From Algoriphagus sp. (GTDB taxonomy: Bacteria; Bacteroidota; Bacteroidia; Cytophagales; Cyclobacteriaceae), in contig NZ_JAUXYL010000038.1 of NCBI RefSeq assembly GCF_030694375.1, positions 434,001 to 498,000 on the forward strand: a DNA stretch of 64,000 bases. Reading direction: 5' to 3'. The position numbers and the translations under genes were made by a program. Under the pieces are notes generated by a model. That model was given only the letters and a program-made list of their open reading frames with translations, made no database searches and was not told where the DNA came from. The number at the start of each line of letters is the position of its first letter. Within the stretch, counting starts at the first letter, position 1. Of the stretch, positions 5,763 through 15,437 are shown one piece after another.

Positions 5763-6527
5763 TTACTTTGTAGTAGTCGTGAAGCTGATATTTCTATCTG
5801 AAAATATAGAAGGATTCCAATTAAAAGTTCGTTCCGTGATTTTTGTTTCACCGCGCCAATTTTTTAATACTGCTGTGGCTGAAACTGTACCGTAATTAGG
5901 CTGGATTCGGATCAATTGTGAAGAAAGTCCAACTTCCATCTGTTCAGGAACTCCTGTGTCAGGCAAGGTTTCAATCGAGTAAGTTTCATCGGATTTCAGG
6001 ATTTGGAGTAGATTTTCGGCAGAGATTTCGGTTGAAAGCACCCTTGCCAATTGGCTTTTGGCTAAGTCTACTTTTGGCCAGGGATCATTGATCAAGCCAT
6101 TGCTTAATCCATGAATCCCGGGTTGAATTTCCTGAATATCTTCAGCGTAATTGCTGAGGTAAAATAGCTTTTCGCTATCTCCAACCAGCAAATTAAAGCC
6201 TTCATATCGATCTTTTTCTTTGAAAACTTCCCTGAGGTAAGTTTCGGGCTCCAAGTTTCCCTCAAGATAAGTTTCCACAAGCTTACCTCTGCTTACTTCC
6301 CCTTTCTTAGGTTTGGAGAAATCCCTGTAATTCGTCAAAAGAGACCATTTCCCGTTGGGATGAAAACCCATCCAAGTTCCTCCCCCACGGAGATCTTTGC
6401 CTGCGATCAATCCACTTTTCCAAGAATGAAGTTCAGCAGTTGGTCGGTCAAAAAATTCATCCCGGTTGGCACTGATGACAAGTGGAAATTCATCATGATT
6501 TTTCCAGGAAATGGCTACTAGACACAT
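5763..6527 (-). CDS. NRDE (TANGO2-like) family protein
   Basis: A 254-residue protein beginning MCLVAI and carrying the diagnostic NRDE motif in VISANRDEFFDRPT, followed by GGTWMGFHPNGKWSLLTNYRD and LLVGDSEKLFYLSN. These define the NRDE/TANGO2 family. Its cysteine-2 after the initiator methionine is typical of Ntn-hydrolase-like members; the substrate is unknown in bacteria. It is the first gene of a two-gene minus-strand unit with ypdA. A terminator separates it from the Old Yellow Enzyme gene upstream. Confidence 0.85.
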   Translation of the reverse strand: MCLVAISWKNHDEFPLVISANRDEFFDRPTAELHSWKSGLIAGKDLRGGGTWMGFHPNGKWSLLTNYRDFSKPKKGEVSRGKLVETYLEGNLEPETYLREVFKEKDRYEGFNLLVGDSEKLFYLSNYAEDIQEIQPGIHGLSNGLINDPWPKVDLAKSQLARVLSTEISAENLLQILKSDETYSIETLPDTGVPEQMEVGLSSQLIRIQPNYGTVSATAVLKNWRGETKITERTFNWNPSIFSDRNISFTTTTK

Positions 6528-7799: not shown

Positions 7800-8600
7800 A
7801 TGAACCCAAATTTAATTTTGATTACTGGCGCCGGAAGTGGCATTGGTCTACATCTGGCAGCAGCTCTTTTTGATAGGGGGTTCACGTTGCTTTTGGTTGA
7901 CTTGAGCACACCTGCGATTGAAAAAAAGTTTAATGGGAGTTCAGCAGTCCATGTTATGACAGGGGATATTTCAAAAGCAGAAACTTGGAACCATGCCATT
8001 AACCTTGCTAAAAATTTGGGCCAGCCGATCTCACATTTAATCAATTGTGCGGGAGTTATTCGGCCGGGATTTGTAGCTGATTATGCCTTGGCTGATATTG
8101 ATTTTCATCTCGACGTCAATACTAAAGGAACCATCCTGGGTACTTCGATCATCGGAAAAGAAATGAAATTTCAGGGGTTTGGGCATATTATTAATATTGC
8201 CTCTTTAGCTGGAATCGCTCCTGTTTCAGGCTTGAGTTTGTACACCGCCTCCAAATTTGCCGTACGAGGCTTTTCATTGGCAGCGGCTGCGGAGTTTCGT
8301 GATTTTGGGATCTTTGTTTCCGTAGTTTGTCCTGATTTGGTGGATACCCCGATGCTTACCACGCAATTGGATTATCCCGAAGAATCTAAATTATCATTCA
8401 GCGGCCCAAAAAAGGTGTTAAGACCAGAGGACATCACTCGTGTTATATTGGAGTTGATGGAAAATCCGCGTGTTCAGGTCTGTATTCCTGAGACGAGAGG
8501 GTTTCTTGCAAAAATTGCCGGAGCTTGGCCTAAAATCGGAGAGCTTTTTCGCGCCAATCTTGAATCAAAGGGACGAAAGGCAATTCAAAAAAGAAAGTAA
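7800..8600 (+). CDS. SDR family NAD(P)-dependent oxidoreductase
   Basis: A 266-residue short-chain dehydrogenase. The N-terminal cofactor motif is TGAGSGIG and the catalytic block is YTASKFAVRG (YxxxK) after NIASLAGIAPVSG, with the NCAG-type motif LINCAGVIRP. The acidic residue after the second strand (LLLVDLS) favours NAD(H). The substrate cannot be inferred. It is divergent from the ene-reductase, with 107 bp between their starts, and ends about 32 bp before the BlaI operator array. Confidence 0.85.
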   Translation: MNPNLILITGAGSGIGLHLAAALFDRGFTLLLVDLSTPAIEKKFNGSSAVHVMTGDISKAETWNHAINLAKNLGQPISHLINCAGVIRPGFVADYALADIDFHLDVNTKGTILGTSIIGKEMKFQGFGHIINIASLAGIAPVSGLSLYTASKFAVRGFSLAAAAEFRDFGIFVSVVCPDLVDTPMLTTQLDYPEESKLSFSGPKKVLRPEDITRVILELMENPRVQVCIPETRGFLAKIAGAWPKIGELFRANLESKGRKAIQKRK

Positions 8601-8632
8601 ACGGCAGGCAATCAGTATTTAACACTTTTTAA

Positions 8633-8648
8633 TACGAAAATAATCGTA
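8633..8648. promoter_or_regulatory. BlaI-type operator O1
   Basis: TACGAAAATAATCGTA is an inverted repeat TACGA-N6-TCGTA lying just upstream of the -33 element of the blaI promoter. Two more sites with the same 16-bp architecture follow at 8662 and 8687. Confidence 0.75.
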
Positions 8649-8653
8649 CTTTT

Positions 8654-8685
8654 TTTGATAATACGATAAGCTTCGTATAACTTTG
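8654..8685 (+). promoter_or_regulatory. Promoter of the blaI-M56 operon (TTTG-N20-TAACTTTG)
   Basis: A -33 TTTG at 8654-8657 and a perfect -7 TAACTTTG at 8678-8685 are separated by 20 bp, matching the Bacteroidota sigma consensus. The start site is predicted near 8690, about 22 nt before the blaI ATG. One operator fills the spacer and another covers the start site. Confidence 0.8.
8662..8677. promoter_or_regulatory. BlaI-type operator O2 in the promoter spacer
   Basis: TACGATAAGCTTCGTA has the form TACGA-N6-TCGTA and sits exactly between the -33 and -7 boxes, so a bound repressor would occlude sigma factor contacts. Confidence 0.75.
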
Positions 8686-8686
8686 G

Positions 8687-8702
8687 TACGAAAGTAATCG
8701 TA
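8687..8702. promoter_or_regulatory. BlaI-type operator O3 over the start site
   Basis: TACGAAAGTAATCGTA, again TACGA-N6-TCGTA, starts 2 bp after the -7 box and covers the predicted transcription start. It differs from O1 at one base. Confidence 0.75.
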
Positions 8703-8711
8703 GATACTGCC

Positions 8712-9080
8712 ATGAACAAACCAACTGAATCAGAATTAGAAATTTTGTCCCTACTGTGGGAAATGAAAGAAGCCAGCGTCCGCCAAATTCATGAGCGCCT
8801 GGCCGAGACAAAGGATACCGGCTACACTACTACCTTGAAAACCATGCAAATCATGCATGCCAAAGGAATGGTAACCCGGGATGAAGAAAACAGGTCTCAT
8901 ATTTACCGCCCGAAGACTAATCAAAAGGAAACGCAAAACTCACTTTTGAAAAATCTGATGAGCACTGCCTTCGGAGGTTCATCAAAGGCATTGGTCATGC
9001 AGGCGTTGGGACAGGATAATCCTTCCAAGGATGAAATTGATGAAATCAGGGCGTTTCTTGACCAACTTGAAAATAATTAG
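8712..9080 (+). CDS. BlaI/MecI/CopY-family transcriptional repressor
   Basis: A 122-residue winged-helix repressor. The family pattern is clear: TESELEILSLLWEMKEASVRQIHERL followed by the recognition region DTGYTTTLKTMQIMHAKGMVTRDEENRSHIYRP. The C-terminal third should form the dimerisation part. In the BlaI/MecI systems a membrane M56 peptidase of BlaR1 type triggers cleavage of the repressor; here such a gene follows 2 bp downstream. The three dyad sites around the promoter strongly suggest autoregulation of this two-gene operon. What signal is sensed, and whether other genes are controlled, is not visible. Confidence 0.92.
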   Translation: MNKPTESELEILSLLWEMKEASVRQIHERLAETKDTGYTTTLKTMQIMHAKGMVTRDEENRSHIYRPKTNQKETQNSLLKNLMSTAFGGSSKALVMQALGQDNPSKDEIDEIRAFLDQLENN

Positions 9081-9082
9081 CT

Positions 9083-11191
9083 ATGAGACTTTTAAATGAC
9101 TGGATATCAGAAAGTCTGCTGAATGCCTTGGGATGGGCTTTGGTTCATTCGATTTGGCAGCTCATTTTAATTGCGGCAGCTCTTTGGATTTTGTTGAAAA
9201 TAGCTCACCGGGCAAAACCTTCCACTAAGTATGGACTTGCGGTAGGGGCTTTGGCCTTAGCGTTTGTAGTTTCAATGCTGACATTCGCATATCAATATGA
9301 GGCACAGCCCAGCGTTGCCACGCATATAGCAGCGAGTGGGGATCTTCAGATCTTCTTCGATAATTCGGCGATACTTTTGAGTGAATCGAAGTTTGAGTCA
9401 GGAATCCGGCAGGCTACTGATTGGATTGAGCAAAACATATTCTTGCTGGTTAACTTCTGGTTTTTAGGAGCGCTTTTATTTCTTTTCAGACTTGTCAATA
9501 GTTTCTCAGAAATACGGAGTTTAAGAAAATCCTCTTCTTCGGTGGTTGATTATCAGATTCAACGGGTTGCTTACCGTTTAGCAAACAAAATGGGTGTGAG
9601 CAGAGCGGTCCAACTGAAAATTAGCTCAGTGTGTATTTCGCCCCTCACCTTTGGAGCTTTCAAACCTATTATTCTGCTCCCTGTAGGCTTGCTGTTTCAG
9701 CTTTCACCTGCCCAGCTCGAAGCAATTATTGCACATGAATTGGCGCATGTGAAGCGCAATGATTACCTCGCCAACTTGCTTCTTTCGGTCATGGAAATCT
9801 TGTTCTTCTTTCATCCTTGTTATTGGTGGATCAACAATACTATAAAAGAACTCCGTGAAAATGCCGCAGATGACCTGGTCTTGAAATCTGGAATTGATCC
9901 CAAAAATCTAGCAACCAGCTTGGCGGAAGTCATCAATTTTGCACAGCAAAATCCACCCGAGTTGGCACTTGCCGCAGGCAAAAAAAGAAATCCAACACTT
10001 CAGCGAATCAAGCGGATACTAGGTTATCCCGCTCAAAATTATCCTCAAAACCCTATTATTTCTATCCCTATGTTACTTACCTTATTTCTCAGCGTCGGAC
10101 TGATGGCAAGTGCCCAACAGGACGCTACTAAACAAACAAGCTTAGCCACTTCCAAAGCACCAATCGCTGTGATTGAGCCTACGTATCATGATCCTTTTGC
10201 TCAGGATACTGTCATTAAAAAATTCATTGAGCCAAAATCTACTGAAACCGGGTCGGGTAGTGAAAAAAACCGCATGGTTTTCTCCGATGACAATGGAAAT
10301 AGGTATCAGATCATTGGCGATTTGTTGATTTCGGGAAAAGACACGATAGCACTCAGCCCCAAAGCAAAAGCTATGTTGGACAAATTGAGGGCTTTTGATT
10401 CTGAAAATATGCCTCATTTGGAGGTGCCTGCTGCCCCGATATTTCCGGTAGATATGGCTTTGGCACCCGTTCCAAAATTTGATTTTGAGGAGAAAATGCC
10501 AGTATTGGCAGCGTTTGGTCCTGCCCCTCAGATAGATATGTCTGAATTTCCCATGCCTGTTATGGACTTCGTGCCCCCGGTCATGCCCGTGATGGATATG
10601 TATTTTGAATTCCCATTCGACAAGGCCCTGACTTCATTTCCACTCGCTTTTGACACAACGAAAATGAGTAAGGATGAGAAAGAAAAATGGAAAAAAGAGG
10701 TAGAATTCAATTCCAAAGCATGGGCTAAAGAGGCCGAGGAAGTATCCAAAAAATGGGAGAAACACTCAGCAGAGTGGGAAGCCAAATTCGAAAAGGAATT
10801 TCAGCCCAAACTCAAAGAATTCGAAATCAAAATGAAAGAATGGGAGGCAGCAAATGGTCCTAGAATGAAGGAATTCGAACAGAAGATGGCAGAGTGGCAA
10901 GCTGCACACGAGCCTAAGATGAAAGAATTTGAGGCCAAGATGAACGAATGGCATAAAGCCAATAAGCCCAAGATGATGGAGTTCGAACTAAAAATGAAAG
11001 AGTGGGAAGCTGAGCAGAAACCTAAAATGAAAGAATTCGAGCAGAAAATGAAAGAATGGGAAGCCGCTCAAAAACCAAAAATGGAGGAGTTCCAACGAAA
11101 GATGGAAATATGGCAAAAGGAGCATCAGGCCAAGCTTCAGGAATTTCAAAAACTGATACAACAAGAACTCAAAAAAGATGACAATAAATAA
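9083..11191 (+). CDS. M56 (BlaR1-like) membrane metallopeptidase with 18-residue repeat tail
   Basis: A 702-residue membrane protein. The N-terminal ~340 residues hold membrane segments and an M56 zinc peptidase domain: HELAHVKR with the zinc motif at about 218-222 and ENAADD with the third ligand near 259. A membrane segment IPMLLTLFLSVGLMASA lies near 330-345. After this comes a Pro/Met-rich stretch (about 425-525, with PMPVMDFVPPVMPVMDMYFEF) and from about residue 573 to the end a charged helix of tandem 18-residue units of the type PKMKEFEQKMKEWEAAQK. The beta-lactam-binding sensor domain of BlaR1 is absent. It follows blaI by 2 bp and presumably relays a signal by cutting that repressor. 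The extended tail could be an envelope-spanning helix or a sensor; that part is inference. Confidence 0.85.
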   Translation: MRLLNDWISESLLNALGWALVHSIWQLILIAAALWILLKIAHRAKPSTKYGLAVGALALAFVVSMLTFAYQYEAQPSVATHIAASGDLQIFFDNSAILLSESKFESGIRQATDWIEQNIFLLVNFWFLGALLFLFRLVNSFSEIRSLRKSSSSVVDYQIQRVAYRLANKMGVSRAVQLKISSVCISPLTFGAFKPIILLPVGLLFQLSPAQLEAIIAHELAHVKRNDYLANLLLSVMEILFFFHPCYWWINNTIKELRENAADDLVLKSGIDPKNLATSLAEVINFAQQNPPELALAAGKKRNPTLQRIKRILGYPAQNYPQNPIISIPMLLTLFLSVGLMASAQQDATKQTSLATSKAPIAVIEPTYHDPFAQDTVIKKFIEPKSTETGSGSEKNRMVFSDDNGNRYQIIGDLLISGKDTIALSPKAKAMLDKLRAFDSENMPHLEVPAAPIFPVDMALAPVPKFDFEEKMPVLAAFGPAPQIDMSEFPMPVMDFVPPVMPVMDMYFEFPFDKALTSFPLAFDTTKMSKDEKEKWKKEVEFNSKAWAKEAEEVSKKWEKHSAEWEAKFEKEFQPKLKEFEIKMKEWEAANGPRMKEFEQKMAEWQAAHEPKMKEFEAKMNEWHKANKPKMMEFELKMKEWEAEQKPKMKEFEQKMKEWEAAQKPKMEEFQRKMEIWQKEHQAKLQEFQKLIQQELKKDDNK
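10800..11170 (+). repeat. 54-bp degenerate coding repeats (18-residue helical units)
   Basis: Within the M56 gene about six to seven consecutive units share the pattern P-[KR]-M-x-E-F-E-x-K-M-x-E-W-x-x. Each unit is 18 residues, exactly five turns of an alpha helix, so the same residues recur on the same face. Confidence 0.8.
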
Positions 11192-11215: not shown

Positions 11216-11251
11216 AAAGACCTGTCCTTTGGGCAGGTCTTTTTTTATTTT
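11216..11251 (+). terminator. Terminator after the M56 gene
   Basis: A 9-bp perfect stem AAAGACCTG / CAGGTCTTT with a 9-nt loop is followed by a long T-rich run. Confidence 0.85.
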
Positions 11252-11257
11252 TTTGAC

Positions 11258-11598: not shown

Positions 11599-12033
11599 AT
11601 GTTCAATTGTCGATATGATTGTAAGCTGGATCCCAAAGGACGTCTGGTTTTGCCTTCCAAAATAAAGGGGGCAATACCGGAGGCCAATGGGAGTGCGCTT
11701 ATGCTTCAAATGGCAGCTGACAAATGTCTTAAACTCTATCCGATGGTTGAGTTTCGAAAACTGGAAAGTCAGGTAAATGCGCTTTCGGATCACAATGAAG
11801 AGACTCGCAGATTGAAGCGATCTTTTTTCACTCGTATCACTGAGGTAGAACTGGACAGCGCTGGTCGCTTTTTGATTCCAAAAGCCTTTCAGGAATACGC
11901 AGGTCTCGATAAGGATGTGATTCTGGTTGGAGTAGGTAGCAAAATTGAAATGTGGAGTGCGGATCGGTATAAGGACTTTGTAATCGAAGACGATATCGAA
12001 ATGTCACAACAGATGGAAAAATATCTCTCCTGA
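11599..12033 (+). CDS. mraZ: Transcriptional regulator MraZ
   Basis: A 144-residue MraZ with two AbrB-like DNA-binding halves: YDCKLDPKGRLVLPSKIK at the N-terminus and TEVELDSAGRFLIPKAFQEYAGLDKDVILVGVG in the second half, each with the D-x-[KA]-GR core. MraZ assembles into a ring-shaped oligomer that binds repeats upstream of its own gene and controls the dcw cluster. It is the first gene of the cluster, 4 bp before rsmH, and the repeats at 11505-11540 are its predicted target. Whether it represses or activates here is not visible. Confidence 0.95.
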   Translation: MFNCRYDCKLDPKGRLVLPSKIKGAIPEANGSALMLQMAADKCLKLYPMVEFRKLESQVNALSDHNEETRRLKRSFFTRITEVELDSAGRFLIPKAFQEYAGLDKDVILVGVGSKIEMWSADRYKDFVIEDDIEMSQQMEKYLS

Positions 12034-12037
12034 AGCT

Positions 12038-12949
12038 ATGACATCTGCTAATTATCATATCCCAGTGATGCTCGCCCAATGCACTGAAGGCTTGGCTATT
12101 GACCCTAATGGGATCTATGTCGATGTGACATTTGGAGGCGGAGGGCATTCTCGAGAAATCCTGAAGCAATTGGACAAAGGTCATCTTTATGGATTTGACC
12201 AAGACATTGATGCATTGGCCAATGCGCCACAGGATGAGCGGTTCACTTTTGTGCAGGCCAATTTCCGGGATATTAAAAGATACTTGAGGCTGTACGGGGT
12301 AAAGAAAGTTGACGGAATACTGGCTGACTTGGGGATCTCCTCGCATCAGATAGATGTGCCGGGACGTGGTTTTTCGACCAGATTCAGTGGCGAACTCGAT
12401 ATGCGAATGAATCAATCCGCTGATCTAAGTGCCAAGGAGGTTTTGAATACCTACGATGAAGGAAAGCTTCACAAGATTCTTGGAATCTATGGAGAAGTAA
12501 AAAACGCAAAAACTTTGGCGCAGGCTATCGTGTCCGAACGAGCCCAGACACCTTTTGAAACGACGGAAGGATTTACTGCTTTTCTGAAAAAATATGCTCC
12601 CCGTGGCAAAGACTTCAAATATTACGCACAGGTTTTTCAGGCCTTAAGGATTGAAGTCAACGATGAAATGGGGGCTTTGGAGGAAATGTTGCTTAGCGCA
12701 GTGGAGCTACTGAAGCCTGAGGGCAGGCTGGTAGTGATGAGCTATCACAGTCTGGAAGACAGGCTCGTCAAAAACCTGATTGCCAAAGGCAAATTCCAAG
12801 GGGAGGTAGAGAAGGATTTTTACGGAAATCTCATCAGGCCCCTGGAGCCGGTTAGTAGGGGATCAGTCGTAGCAGGCGAGGCAGAAGTAGCCGCAAATCC
12901 AAGAGCAAGGAGTGCCAAATTGAGAATAGCGAAAAAGACAGGGAAATGA
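12038..12949 (+). CDS. rsmH: 16S rRNA (cytosine(1402)-N(4))-methyltransferase
   Basis: RsmH (formerly MraW) methylates N4 of C1402 in the decoding centre of 16S rRNA using SAM. The 303-residue protein starts with HIPVMLAQCTEGL, has the SAM site VDVTFGGGGHSREIL, GILADLGISSHQID, the GFSTRFSGELDMRM block and the C-terminal SYHSLEDRLVKN and NPRARSAKLR motifs. It lies 4 bp after mraZ and overlaps the ftsL-like gene by 4 bp, as usual for the dcw order. Confidence 0.96.
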   Translation: MTSANYHIPVMLAQCTEGLAIDPNGIYVDVTFGGGGHSREILKQLDKGHLYGFDQDIDALANAPQDERFTFVQANFRDIKRYLRLYGVKKVDGILADLGISSHQIDVPGRGFSTRFSGELDMRMNQSADLSAKEVLNTYDEGKLHKILGIYGEVKNAKTLAQAIVSERAQTPFETTEGFTAFLKKYAPRGKDFKYYAQVFQALRIEVNDEMGALEEMLLSAVELLKPEGRLVVMSYHSLEDRLVKNLIAKGKFQGEVEKDFYGNLIRPLEPVSRGSVVAGEAEVAANPRARSAKLRIAKKTGK

Positions 12950-13332
12950 GTCAGAATACCTTTAAGAAGAAACTAAAGGCTGGGAATGCTCCAAAAAAAG
13001 CAGGCCCGGGGAAGACGATTTTCACTTGGATGGAAGATAAGTTGGACGTCAAAGGGATCCTGGGAGAAGGGGTACCTGTACAGCTTGTACCTCCTGTGGG
13101 CTTTCTGGTATTGCTTGCGCTGATCTACATTTTCAGCAATCATAGAGCTGAAAGTATGGTTCGGAAAATCGAAAAAGCCCAGCAGGAAGTAGAAGACCTT
13201 CGGGCTGATGTCACCACGCTGGAGGCAGAATATATGCAAAGCAGCATGCAGTCAGAAGTGGCTAAGCGAGTGGCTAAGCTTGAAATTTATGAATTGAATC
13301 AACCGCCGATCAAAATCGAGGTAAAAAAGTGA
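12946..13332 (+). CDS. FtsL-like cell division protein
   Basis: A 128-residue bitopic protein with a basic cytoplasmic N-terminus, one membrane segment (VQLVPPVGFLVLLALIYIFS, about 46-65) and a periplasmic coiled coil rich in Glu and Val. Size, topology and position between rsmH and the transpeptidase gene identify it as the FtsL equivalent, which in other bacteria joins FtsB and FtsQ in the divisome and activates FtsW/FtsI. Sequence similarity to proteobacterial FtsL is low, as usual. The stop codon overlaps the GTG start of ftsI by 4 bp (GTGA). Confidence 0.8.
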   Translation: MSQNTFKKKLKAGNAPKKAGPGKTIFTWMEDKLDVKGILGEGVPVQLVPPVGFLVLLALIYIFSNHRAESMVRKIEKAQQEVEDLRADVTTLEAEYMQSSMQSEVAKRVAKLEIYELNQPPIKIEVKK

Positions 13333-15437
13333 ATATTAAACGCTCCATAGTGCTCCGAGTGAGGGTGATTTTCATCCTGGTTGCTTTGGCTGCCTGCGCG
13401 ATCCCGTACAAGATCGCCGTGGTGCAGGTAAGGGAGGGAGAGAAATGGAGGGCAAAAGCCGAGCAAGTCAACTTCCAATACCGGGAAGTGCCAGCCACAC
13501 GGGGAAACATCTATGCCACAGACGGGAGCCTCTTGGCTACCAGCTTACCCTTTTATCGGGTAGCGATAGACCCGACGATGGCCAAGGATTCCAAATTCAA
13601 GTCAGGAATTGATTCACTTGCCAGAAACTTGGCCGGATTTTATAAAGACAAGTCTGCCACGGCTTACAAGCGTATGATTCAGGATGCCAGGGGAGACAAA
13701 AAGCGCTTCCTCATCCTCAACAGAAAGCAGATTGGCTATCAGGATATGCAAAAAATGACCGCATGGCCGATTTTTAGAGAAGGCCGCTTGGGTGGTGGAG
13801 TGATTTTCGAAAAAGTAGAAAAGCGATACAGACCTTTTAATTCATTGGCAAGCCGAACTGTCGGCTTTTTGAATGAAGACGACTACGGTGCAGGAATCGA
13901 ATACAGCTTCAATAATTACCTCAAAGGAAAAGATGGAAAAGCCTTGTTTCAAAGACTGGCCGGAGGAATTTGGAAGCCTGTTTTTGACGCGGAGGATATC
14001 AAGCCTGATAACGGCTACGACGTATTTACCACTTTGGATGTAAACATTCAGGATGTAGCGGAGACTGCGCTGAGGAGACAACTGACTGACAGAAATGCAG
14101 CTTTTGGTTCCGTGATTGTGATGGAAGTAAAGACAGGCCACATCAAGGCAATGTCCAATTTGCAGCGCAACAAGAGTGGCCTGGGCTATTCCGAAAGTTA
14201 CAATTATGCAGTAGGGGATATCGGAAATACCGAGCCTGGATCGACTTTCAAGTTGGTCTCGATGTTGGCGCTTTTGGAAGAAAACAAAATCAGTCTGAAT
14301 GAGACAATCGAAACCGGAAACGGTGCGCACAGATTCTACAATCAGACGATGTATGATGCCAAAAATGGCGGTTATGGCACAATCACCATTCGGGAAGCCT
14401 TCGAAAAATCGTCCAATGTGGCGATTTCAAAGCTGGTAGATATGCACTTTGGATCCAGTCCATCCAAGTTTATGGCTTACATGGATAAAGCCGGTATTGC
14501 CGAGCCATTCGATCTGCAGCTTACAGGGGAAGGAAAACCATTTTTCAAAAAGCCGGGGTCAAAAACCTGGTACGGAACCTCGCTTCCATGGATTTCCATT
14601 GGATATGAATCCAAGGTTAATCCCATCCATACCTTGGCACTTTACAACGCAGTGGCAAATAACGGAGTCATGATGAAGCCGCTGTTTGTAAAAGCAGTAG
14701 GTAGAGGCAATACATTGATGGAGAAGTTTGAGCCTCAGGTTTTGAGAAAGCAAATCGCCTCTGAAAAAACGATAAAGCACCTTCAGGAGCTTTTGGAAGG
14801 GGTGGTGTTGAGAGGCACAGCAAGAAACATCCTGAACGATAACTATAAAATCGCAGGAAAAACCGGGACAGCACAGAAAATCGTCAACGGGAAATATACC
14901 GAAACCTACTACACCAGCTTTGCGGGATATTTTCCTGCTGATCGACCCAAGTACAGCATGATCATCGTGATCGATAGTCCCAAAGGTATTGCTGCATATG
15001 GGGGCGATGTATCTGCTCCGGTTTTCAAAGAAATCGCAGATCGAATCTATGCTTTAGACATGGAATTGAATCCGGTGGATCAGTCCAAGATTTACATGGC
15101 TGAAAATCAAATCAGCAAAATGCCTTACATCAGTGCCGGAAAAGGGGAGGAGCTTCAGGGGATTTTTGATGAATTGGGTATCAAAGTGAAAAGCCCAGGC
15201 ACCGAAGATTGGGTGAAAGCTTCCCTGATCTCTGAAAATTTTGATTTGAGAATCAATGAGACTGAAAAGCCGACTGTGCCGGATGTCTCAGGTATGCCAC
15301 TTCGAGATGCACTTTTTGTCCTGGAAAATAAGGGGCTTAAGGTGAACTACAGTGGCAAAGGTCGTGTGGTGGAGCAATCGCTAGCTCCGGGCACACAGCT
15401 TAGCCCAAATGCAACAATCAACTTGGTATTAGGATGA
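13329..15437 (+). CDS. ftsI: Division-specific peptidoglycan transpeptidase (PBP3/FtsI type) with PASTA domain
   Basis: A 702-residue class B penicillin-binding protein that cross-links septal peptidoglycan. It has an N-terminal membrane anchor (VIFILVALAACAIPYKIAVV), a dimerisation domain with ATRGNIYATDGSLLATS, and the transpeptidase domain with STFK (nucleophile Ser near 305), SSN near 361-363 and KTGT near 511-514. The last ~55 residues (PDVSGMPLRDALFVLENKG...) form a PASTA domain. Translation must start at the GTG at 13329, since the frame overlaps the ftsL stop and no nearby ATG exists before the membrane anchor. It overlaps murE by 4 bp. Confidence 0.95.
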   Translation: MNIKRSIVLRVRVIFILVALAACAIPYKIAVVQVREGEKWRAKAEQVNFQYREVPATRGNIYATDGSLLATSLPFYRVAIDPTMAKDSKFKSGIDSLARNLAGFYKDKSATAYKRMIQDARGDKKRFLILNRKQIGYQDMQKMTAWPIFREGRLGGGVIFEKVEKRYRPFNSLASRTVGFLNEDDYGAGIEYSFNNYLKGKDGKALFQRLAGGIWKPVFDAEDIKPDNGYDVFTTLDVNIQDVAETALRRQLTDRNAAFGSVIVMEVKTGHIKAMSNLQRNKSGLGYSESYNYAVGDIGNTEPGSTFKLVSMLALLEENKISLNETIETGNGAHRFYNQTMYDAKNGGYGTITIREAFEKSSNVAISKLVDMHFGSSPSKFMAYMDKAGIAEPFDLQLTGEGKPFFKKPGSKTWYGTSLPWISIGYESKVNPIHTLALYNAVANNGVMMKPLFVKAVGRGNTLMEKFEPQVLRKQIASEKTIKHLQELLEGVVLRGTARNILNDNYKIAGKTGTAQKIVNGKYTETYYTSFAGYFPADRPKYSMIIVIDSPKGIAAYGGDVSAPVFKEIADRIYALDMELNPVDQSKIYMAENQISKMPYISAGKGEELQGIFDELGIKVKSPGTEDWVKASLISENFDLRINETEKPTVPDVSGMPLRDALFVLENKGLKVNYSGKGRVVEQSLAPGTQLSPNATINLVLG

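Follow-up and report, generated by a model that had tools for sequence, protein, structure and literature searches.

The window analysed here, a stretch of 64,000 nucleotides from an Algoriphagus genome whose nearest named relative is A. alkaliphilus, contains a short operon in which a gene for a BlaI/MecI-family repressor is followed by one for an M56 peptidase with a long helical tail. Its components, in window coordinates, are these:

8633-8648, 8662-8677 and 8687-8702, no strand assigned: three operator dyads, O1, O2 and O3, TACGA-N6-TCGTA (exact genome matches)
8656..8686 (approximate limits), + strand: Bacteroidota-type promoter, TTG-N20-TAACTTTG (TAnnTTTG in 35/39 loci)
8712..9080, + strand: BlaI/MecI-family repressor, 122 aa (PF03965, E 8e-27; aligns with the MecI, BlaI and 2g9w structures)
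9083..11191, + strand: M56 peptidase with helical tail, 702 aa (PF05569, E 2e-30)
9734..9748, + strand: HELAH zinc-protease motif, H218 E219 H222 (invariant in 17 orthologues)
10058..10117, + strand: last TM helix, followed by the signal-peptidase-like site LMASA↓QQD (predicted cut after residue 344)
10118..10654, + strand: fast-evolving Pro/Met-rich linker, residues 346-524 (low predicted confidence; placed as periplasmic)
10655..10804, + strand: start of the rod, residues 525-574, comprising the N-cap DTTKMS and an irregular helical stretch (helical from about residue 530)
10805..11128, + strand: six 18-residue units, PKMxEFExKMxEWxxxxx, residues 575-682
11129..11188, + strand: C-terminal cap AKLQEFQKLIQQELKKDDNK, residues 683-702 (last unit and cap, identity 0.70)
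11216..11252, + strand: intrinsic-terminator-like hairpin, a 12-pair stem followed by a T run, at the end of the two-gene operon

In this layout blaI (first) and the M56 gene (second) form a two-gene operon, and the terminator-like hairpin begins 25 bases past the stop codon of the M56 gene.

Both products belong to the families named above, PF05569 scoring 106.4 bits on the M56 protein (cut-off 31) and PF03965 matching the repressor over its full length at 94.3 bits (cut-off 22.6). In addition to the HELAH motif, E259 and D263 in the downstream sequence RENAADD are invariant in the 17 orthologues, and positions 48-326 of the M56 family profile align with S. aureus BlaR1 (8exs); the BlaR1-like core of our protein comprises residues 1-345. 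A domain search of the M56 protein found neither a transpeptidase nor a beta-lactamase domain beyond residue 269, and no further domain past the last TM helix, and the score against the BlaR1 equivalog model is 100, below its cut-off of 400. The original prediction, of an M56 protease in which a linker and helical rod stand in place of the penicillin-binding sensor of BlaR1, is borne out in this respect, no such sensor following the last TM helix, and the protease has a BlaI partner.

In the staphylococcal BlaR1/BlaI and MecR1/MecI systems (8exs, PMC9834060), as here, a membrane M56 zinc protease shares an operon with a BlaI-family repressor, and the likeness extends to palindromic operators at the promoter, the alignment of the autocleavage loop and a signal-peptidase-like site past the last TM helix. 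In S. aureus BlaR1 the external sensor drives changes in the protease, BlaI is cut directly and the receptor cleaves itself (PMC9834060). The loop of our receptor that aligns with the BlaR1 autocleavage loop reads LALA↓AGKK and the aligned site in BlaI reads VMQ↓ALG, so that the P1' Phe of S. aureus is replaced by Ala in both (A298 in the receptor), a change that is conserved across relatives. SpsB cleaves S. aureus BlaR1 after its last TM helix (PMC9834060), and 37 of the 43 homologues examined here have a signal-peptidase-like site, defined automatically, past the corresponding helix; at other TM exits such a site was seen in 14 of 129 cases. The paired cut sites and the signal-peptidase-like site support a working protease circuit of the BlaR1 type, in which the M56 protease would cut BlaI at a predicted P1' Ala. 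What sets the system apart from BlaR1 and MecR1 is that linker and repeat rod occupy the position of the missing penicillin-binding sensor, that the operator is TACGA-N6-TCGTA, and that Ala rather than Phe occupies P1' at both predicted cut sites.

The centres of the three dyads upstream of blaI are 29 and 25 bases apart, and they are interleaved with the promoter, its -33-like box lying just ahead of O2 and its -7-like box between O2 and O3. The full arrangement TTG-N19-21-TAnnTTTG occurs in 34 of 39 loci, and TAnnTTTG alone in 35; the assignment of a sigma factor to this promoter we take from general knowledge. About 40 related loci have two or three exact dyads ahead of blaI at the same spacing, with variation in the inner six bases, and the operator evidently belongs to a wider family than the repeat, since related M56 genes without the 18-mer unit also have TACGA-N6-TCGTA operators. 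In the 5.01-Mb genome the three dyads are the only exact sites, and a genome-wide search allowing one mismatch gave 56 sites against 118 for a control pattern, that is, no excess. Across the 17 Algoriphagus genomes whose sites are given in full, 50 of 53 exact sites lie in the operon cluster and three are strays; the same half-sites at a spacing of 8 or 9 occur 33 and 37 times in these genomes, so that stray N6 copies are about ten times less frequent than either of these alternative spacings. Stray exact operators seem to be avoided, and, because they are so rare, the repressor probably controls a single operon, its own, to judge from exact sites. No beta-lactamase or PBP gene was found under an operator, there being no exact operator elsewhere in the genome. 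Since the penicillin sensor is also absent, the M56 protein is, on sequence grounds, not a BlaR1 receptor, though it is laid out like one.

In Algoriphagus the operon directly precedes mraZ-rsmH-ftsL-ftsI (window 11599-15437). We considered the dcw cluster as a functional partner and rejected it; in none of the other genera examined were they found next to the operon, and the adjacency is therefore probably a matter of positional inheritance. Within ftsI, a patch at window 13600-13700 is 76% identical to A. alkaliphilus inside DNA that is otherwise ~98% identical. On the other side, a TANGO2-family gene (window 5763-6527, - strand; PF05742, E 1e-65) has counterparts that lie, in most related genera, no more than a few kb from blaI and often adjoin it divergently, and shared control of the two is possible.

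The repeat units begin at residues 575, 593, 611, 629, 647 and 665, every step being 18, and a degenerate seventh unit or cap then extends to residue 702. Self-identity within the tail is 0.51 at lag 18 and 0.46 at lag 36, against a maximum of about 0.22-0.24 in 2,000 shuffles of the same residues, and Tandem Repeats Finder detects the array as a 108-bp period; the six units at 10805-11128 and their lag-18 identity confirm the proposal that this M56 peptidase ends in 18-residue repeats. Equating 18 residues with five helical turns was also right, because the dominant hydrophobic period of the tail is 3.59 residues. The original prediction further placed Phe, Met, Trp and the prolines on a common face, and this must be divided: Met, Phe and Trp do lie together, but the hydrophobic residues have their centre 160 degrees away from Pro, which puts the prolines on the opposite face. 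The linker ahead of the repeats (residues 346-524) is Pro/Met-rich, as had been noticed, with 11.7% Pro and 6.1% Met; Met makes up 7.3% of the tail and 1.7% of the TM/protease part. Trp occupies unit position 13 in 147 of 151 distinct units and Met position 10 in 130 (Leu/Ile in 12), the units having been defined automatically by a search that itself favours Met and Trp.

AlphaFold2, run on the tail alone, returns one helix from residue 10 to residue 180 of 182 (171 residues; mean pLDDT 85.1), and the full-length model also has a helix at residues 530-700, the best-scored part of a structure whose overall mean pLDDT is 49.8. Both figures refer to a monomer and a shallow alignment of 16-17 sequences, with low confidence in the TM and protease part. 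Long charged repeats often come out as single helices in prediction. The tail is thus modelled as a continuous helix and not as a disordered segment; the onset of the helix, near residue 530, precedes the repeats, and a rise of 0.15 nm per residue gives the rod a predicted length of ~26 nm. A homology search of the tail against solved structures gave no significant match, and the best hit of a structure search with the full model, BlaR1 itself at E 0.27, is not meaningful at a pLDDT of 49.8. Among 42 homologues, 121 of 137 unit-to-unit steps are 18; the others are 22, 29, 40, 54 or 21, several of them sharing ancestry, and since all are near whole turns the helix face is preserved.

The hydrophobic stripe is continuous and is accompanied by attractive g-e' charges, as expected of a coiled coil: for the g-e' pairs of a parallel coil at positions 2→7' and 9→14', attractive and repulsive combinations stand at 81:3 and 60:7, and the core-like unit position 17 carries polar Asn, Gln or His. 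These charges, together with the polar position, suggest that the rod pairs through its Met/Phe/Trp stripe as a parallel in-register dimer, like the BlaR1 dimer. Intrahelical K/E pairs at i,i+3 and i,i+4 are also strong (E5-K9, for example, 148:3), and intrahelical pairs as strong as the g-e' pairs would fit a stand-alone single helix. One Pro per unit is unusual for a continuous coiled coil. The rod resembles charged single alpha-helix (SAH) and coiled-coil stalk proteins in being K/E-rich, in its regular i,i+3/i,i+4 ion pairs and in the prediction of one long helix, but differs from SAH in its Met/Phe/Met/Trp stripe and its one Pro per 18 residues, neither of which is typical of SAH.

In the sampled genome set from which our homologue counts come, a profile of the tail matches 34 of 149 genomes of the family, representing 20 genera, tail and M56 matches sharing one open frame in every case; in 297 genomes across the phylum it recovered only members of the Cyclobacteriaceae and one weak match to a different protein. 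The number of units among homologues ranges from 2 to 7, and the helix, measured from the DTx motif to the end, from 138 to 187 residues at Algoriphagus-type loci and from 114 to 187 in the family, the irregular helix upstream of the units partly offsetting variation in their number. As both unit number and total helix length vary, a strict ruler is unlikely. Sixteen close orthologues have a mean pairwise identity of 0.66 in the TM/protease part, 0.37 in the linker, 0.60 in the repeats and 0.70 in the last unit and cap, the most conserved region of the M56 protein; D524 and T525 are invariant among 17 orthologues. Between the repeats of two homologous loci (L034 and L035) pN is 0.043, meaning that 4% of nonsynonymous sites differ, and pS is saturated. 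A tail that is conserved while the linker drifts, and that has so low a pN, is not neutral low-complexity sequence; purifying selection and conservation across 20 genera rule out such an expansion, and by these comparisons the tail is ancient and under selection.

Compared with A. alkaliphilus, the region is mostly 95-100% identical DNA, with two divergent islands, one covering the operators and blaI (8500-9100, 74-89%) and the other the linker and pre-repeat helix (10100-10790, 56-74%). The linker island has sharp edges, one at the last TM helix and the other at the first repeat, and the two strains differ by one whole repeat unit. In this one strain pair the linker segment looks as if it had been exchanged by recombination.

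The reading we prefer, at a probability of about 45%, is that the M56 protein is a BlaR1-like receptor in which the penicillin sensor has been replaced by the linker and a periplasmic, probably dimeric, helical rod, and which controls its own operon only. The tail would lie in the periplasm as a parallel dimer, where a change in the envelope, whether through contact with the wall, unfolded protein in the envelope or mechanical strain, would act on linker and rod; that envelope state is the input through these two parts is our favoured guess. The signal would then reach the cytoplasmic protease by way of the last TM helix, and the protease would cut BlaI and switch on the repressor/receptor operon alone. 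Signal peptidase may cut past the last TM helix and so release the rod, in which case either the signal would be ended or the rod would itself be the product.

That last possibility leads to a different account, which we consider unlikely, in which the tail is the effector, a released periplasmic helical chaperone or scaffold comparable to Skp, Spy or ZraP, and the protease and BlaI adjust its dose. The only regulated genes found are those for the repressor and the tail protein, the signal-peptidase-like site is widespread among homologues, and conservation outside the membrane is highest in the tail and not in the linker; yet the tail is without homology to Skp or Spy, a match to OmpH falls below the cut-off and is insignificant (E 0.12), and the equivalent cut in S. 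aureus is thought to serve receptor turnover (PMC9834060). A related and similarly improbable arrangement would be a private circuit of protease and repressor with no output other than its own receptor: in response to an envelope signal the protease would destroy BlaI, and signal peptidase would free the tail of the induced protein as the active periplasmic rod, with sensor and effector combined in one polypeptide.

It is no more probable that the tail is a mere dimerisation stalk or spacer and that sensing falls to the linker or the first periplasmic loop. This would suit the linker's behaviour as the variable, recombining part, and also the existence of members without the 18-mer in which protease, linker and operators are the same but the long charged tail is unrelated. 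Such Cyclobacteriaceae M56/BlaI pairs (L081-L096) nearly all share the operators and have a Pro-rich or acidic linker and a long charged, helical-looking tail, but the tail sequence differs, and in most the C-terminus is a small conserved segment, DGY/LI...NGKK...KY, that is absent here; given these other tails, the rod is one elaboration within a helical-tail M56 group. Against the stalk stands purifying selection on the unit and especially the cap, comparable to that on the protease and beyond what a generic stalk needs. Least probable of all is a rod that senses metal or oxidation, its Met and Trp (with His/Asn) and the linker Met binding Cu(I) or heme or becoming oxidised and so signalling to the protease: Met10 and Trp13 recur, Met is enriched in tail and linker beyond what a simple hydrophobic core needs, and the BlaI-fold repressor resembles CopY (TIGR02698, E 7e-12, below the model cut-off), but no copper gene adjoins the operon, the unit search favours these very residues, and related M56 tails without the Met/Trp pattern retain the same operators.

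M56/BlaI pairs are common in Bacteroidota, and to our knowledge their mechanism has been worked out mainly for the staphylococcal penicillin sensors; among the papers searched, nothing relevant was found on M56 or BlaI function in Bacteroidota. The preferred reading, of a rod-bearing receptor, concerns a clade in which the sensor domain has been exchanged while operators, promoter, predicted cut sites and regulon are defined enough to test, and the system offers a route to what non-antibiotic M56 receptors sense. The natural series of rod lengths, from 2 to 7 units, provides a handle on whether length matters.

A comparable succession of elements occurs in flavobacterial secreted proteins (L048 5545-6981 and L057 889-2469), in which a Pro/Met-rich stretch is followed by K/E/M/W-rich helical repeats of the form MxxW. 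These differ in host protein and in their looser repeat spacing, and the similarity is weak (E 9e-5), and the resemblance may be convergent. The first of these genes, at L048, follows an ECF sigma factor gene and a probable anti-sigma gene.
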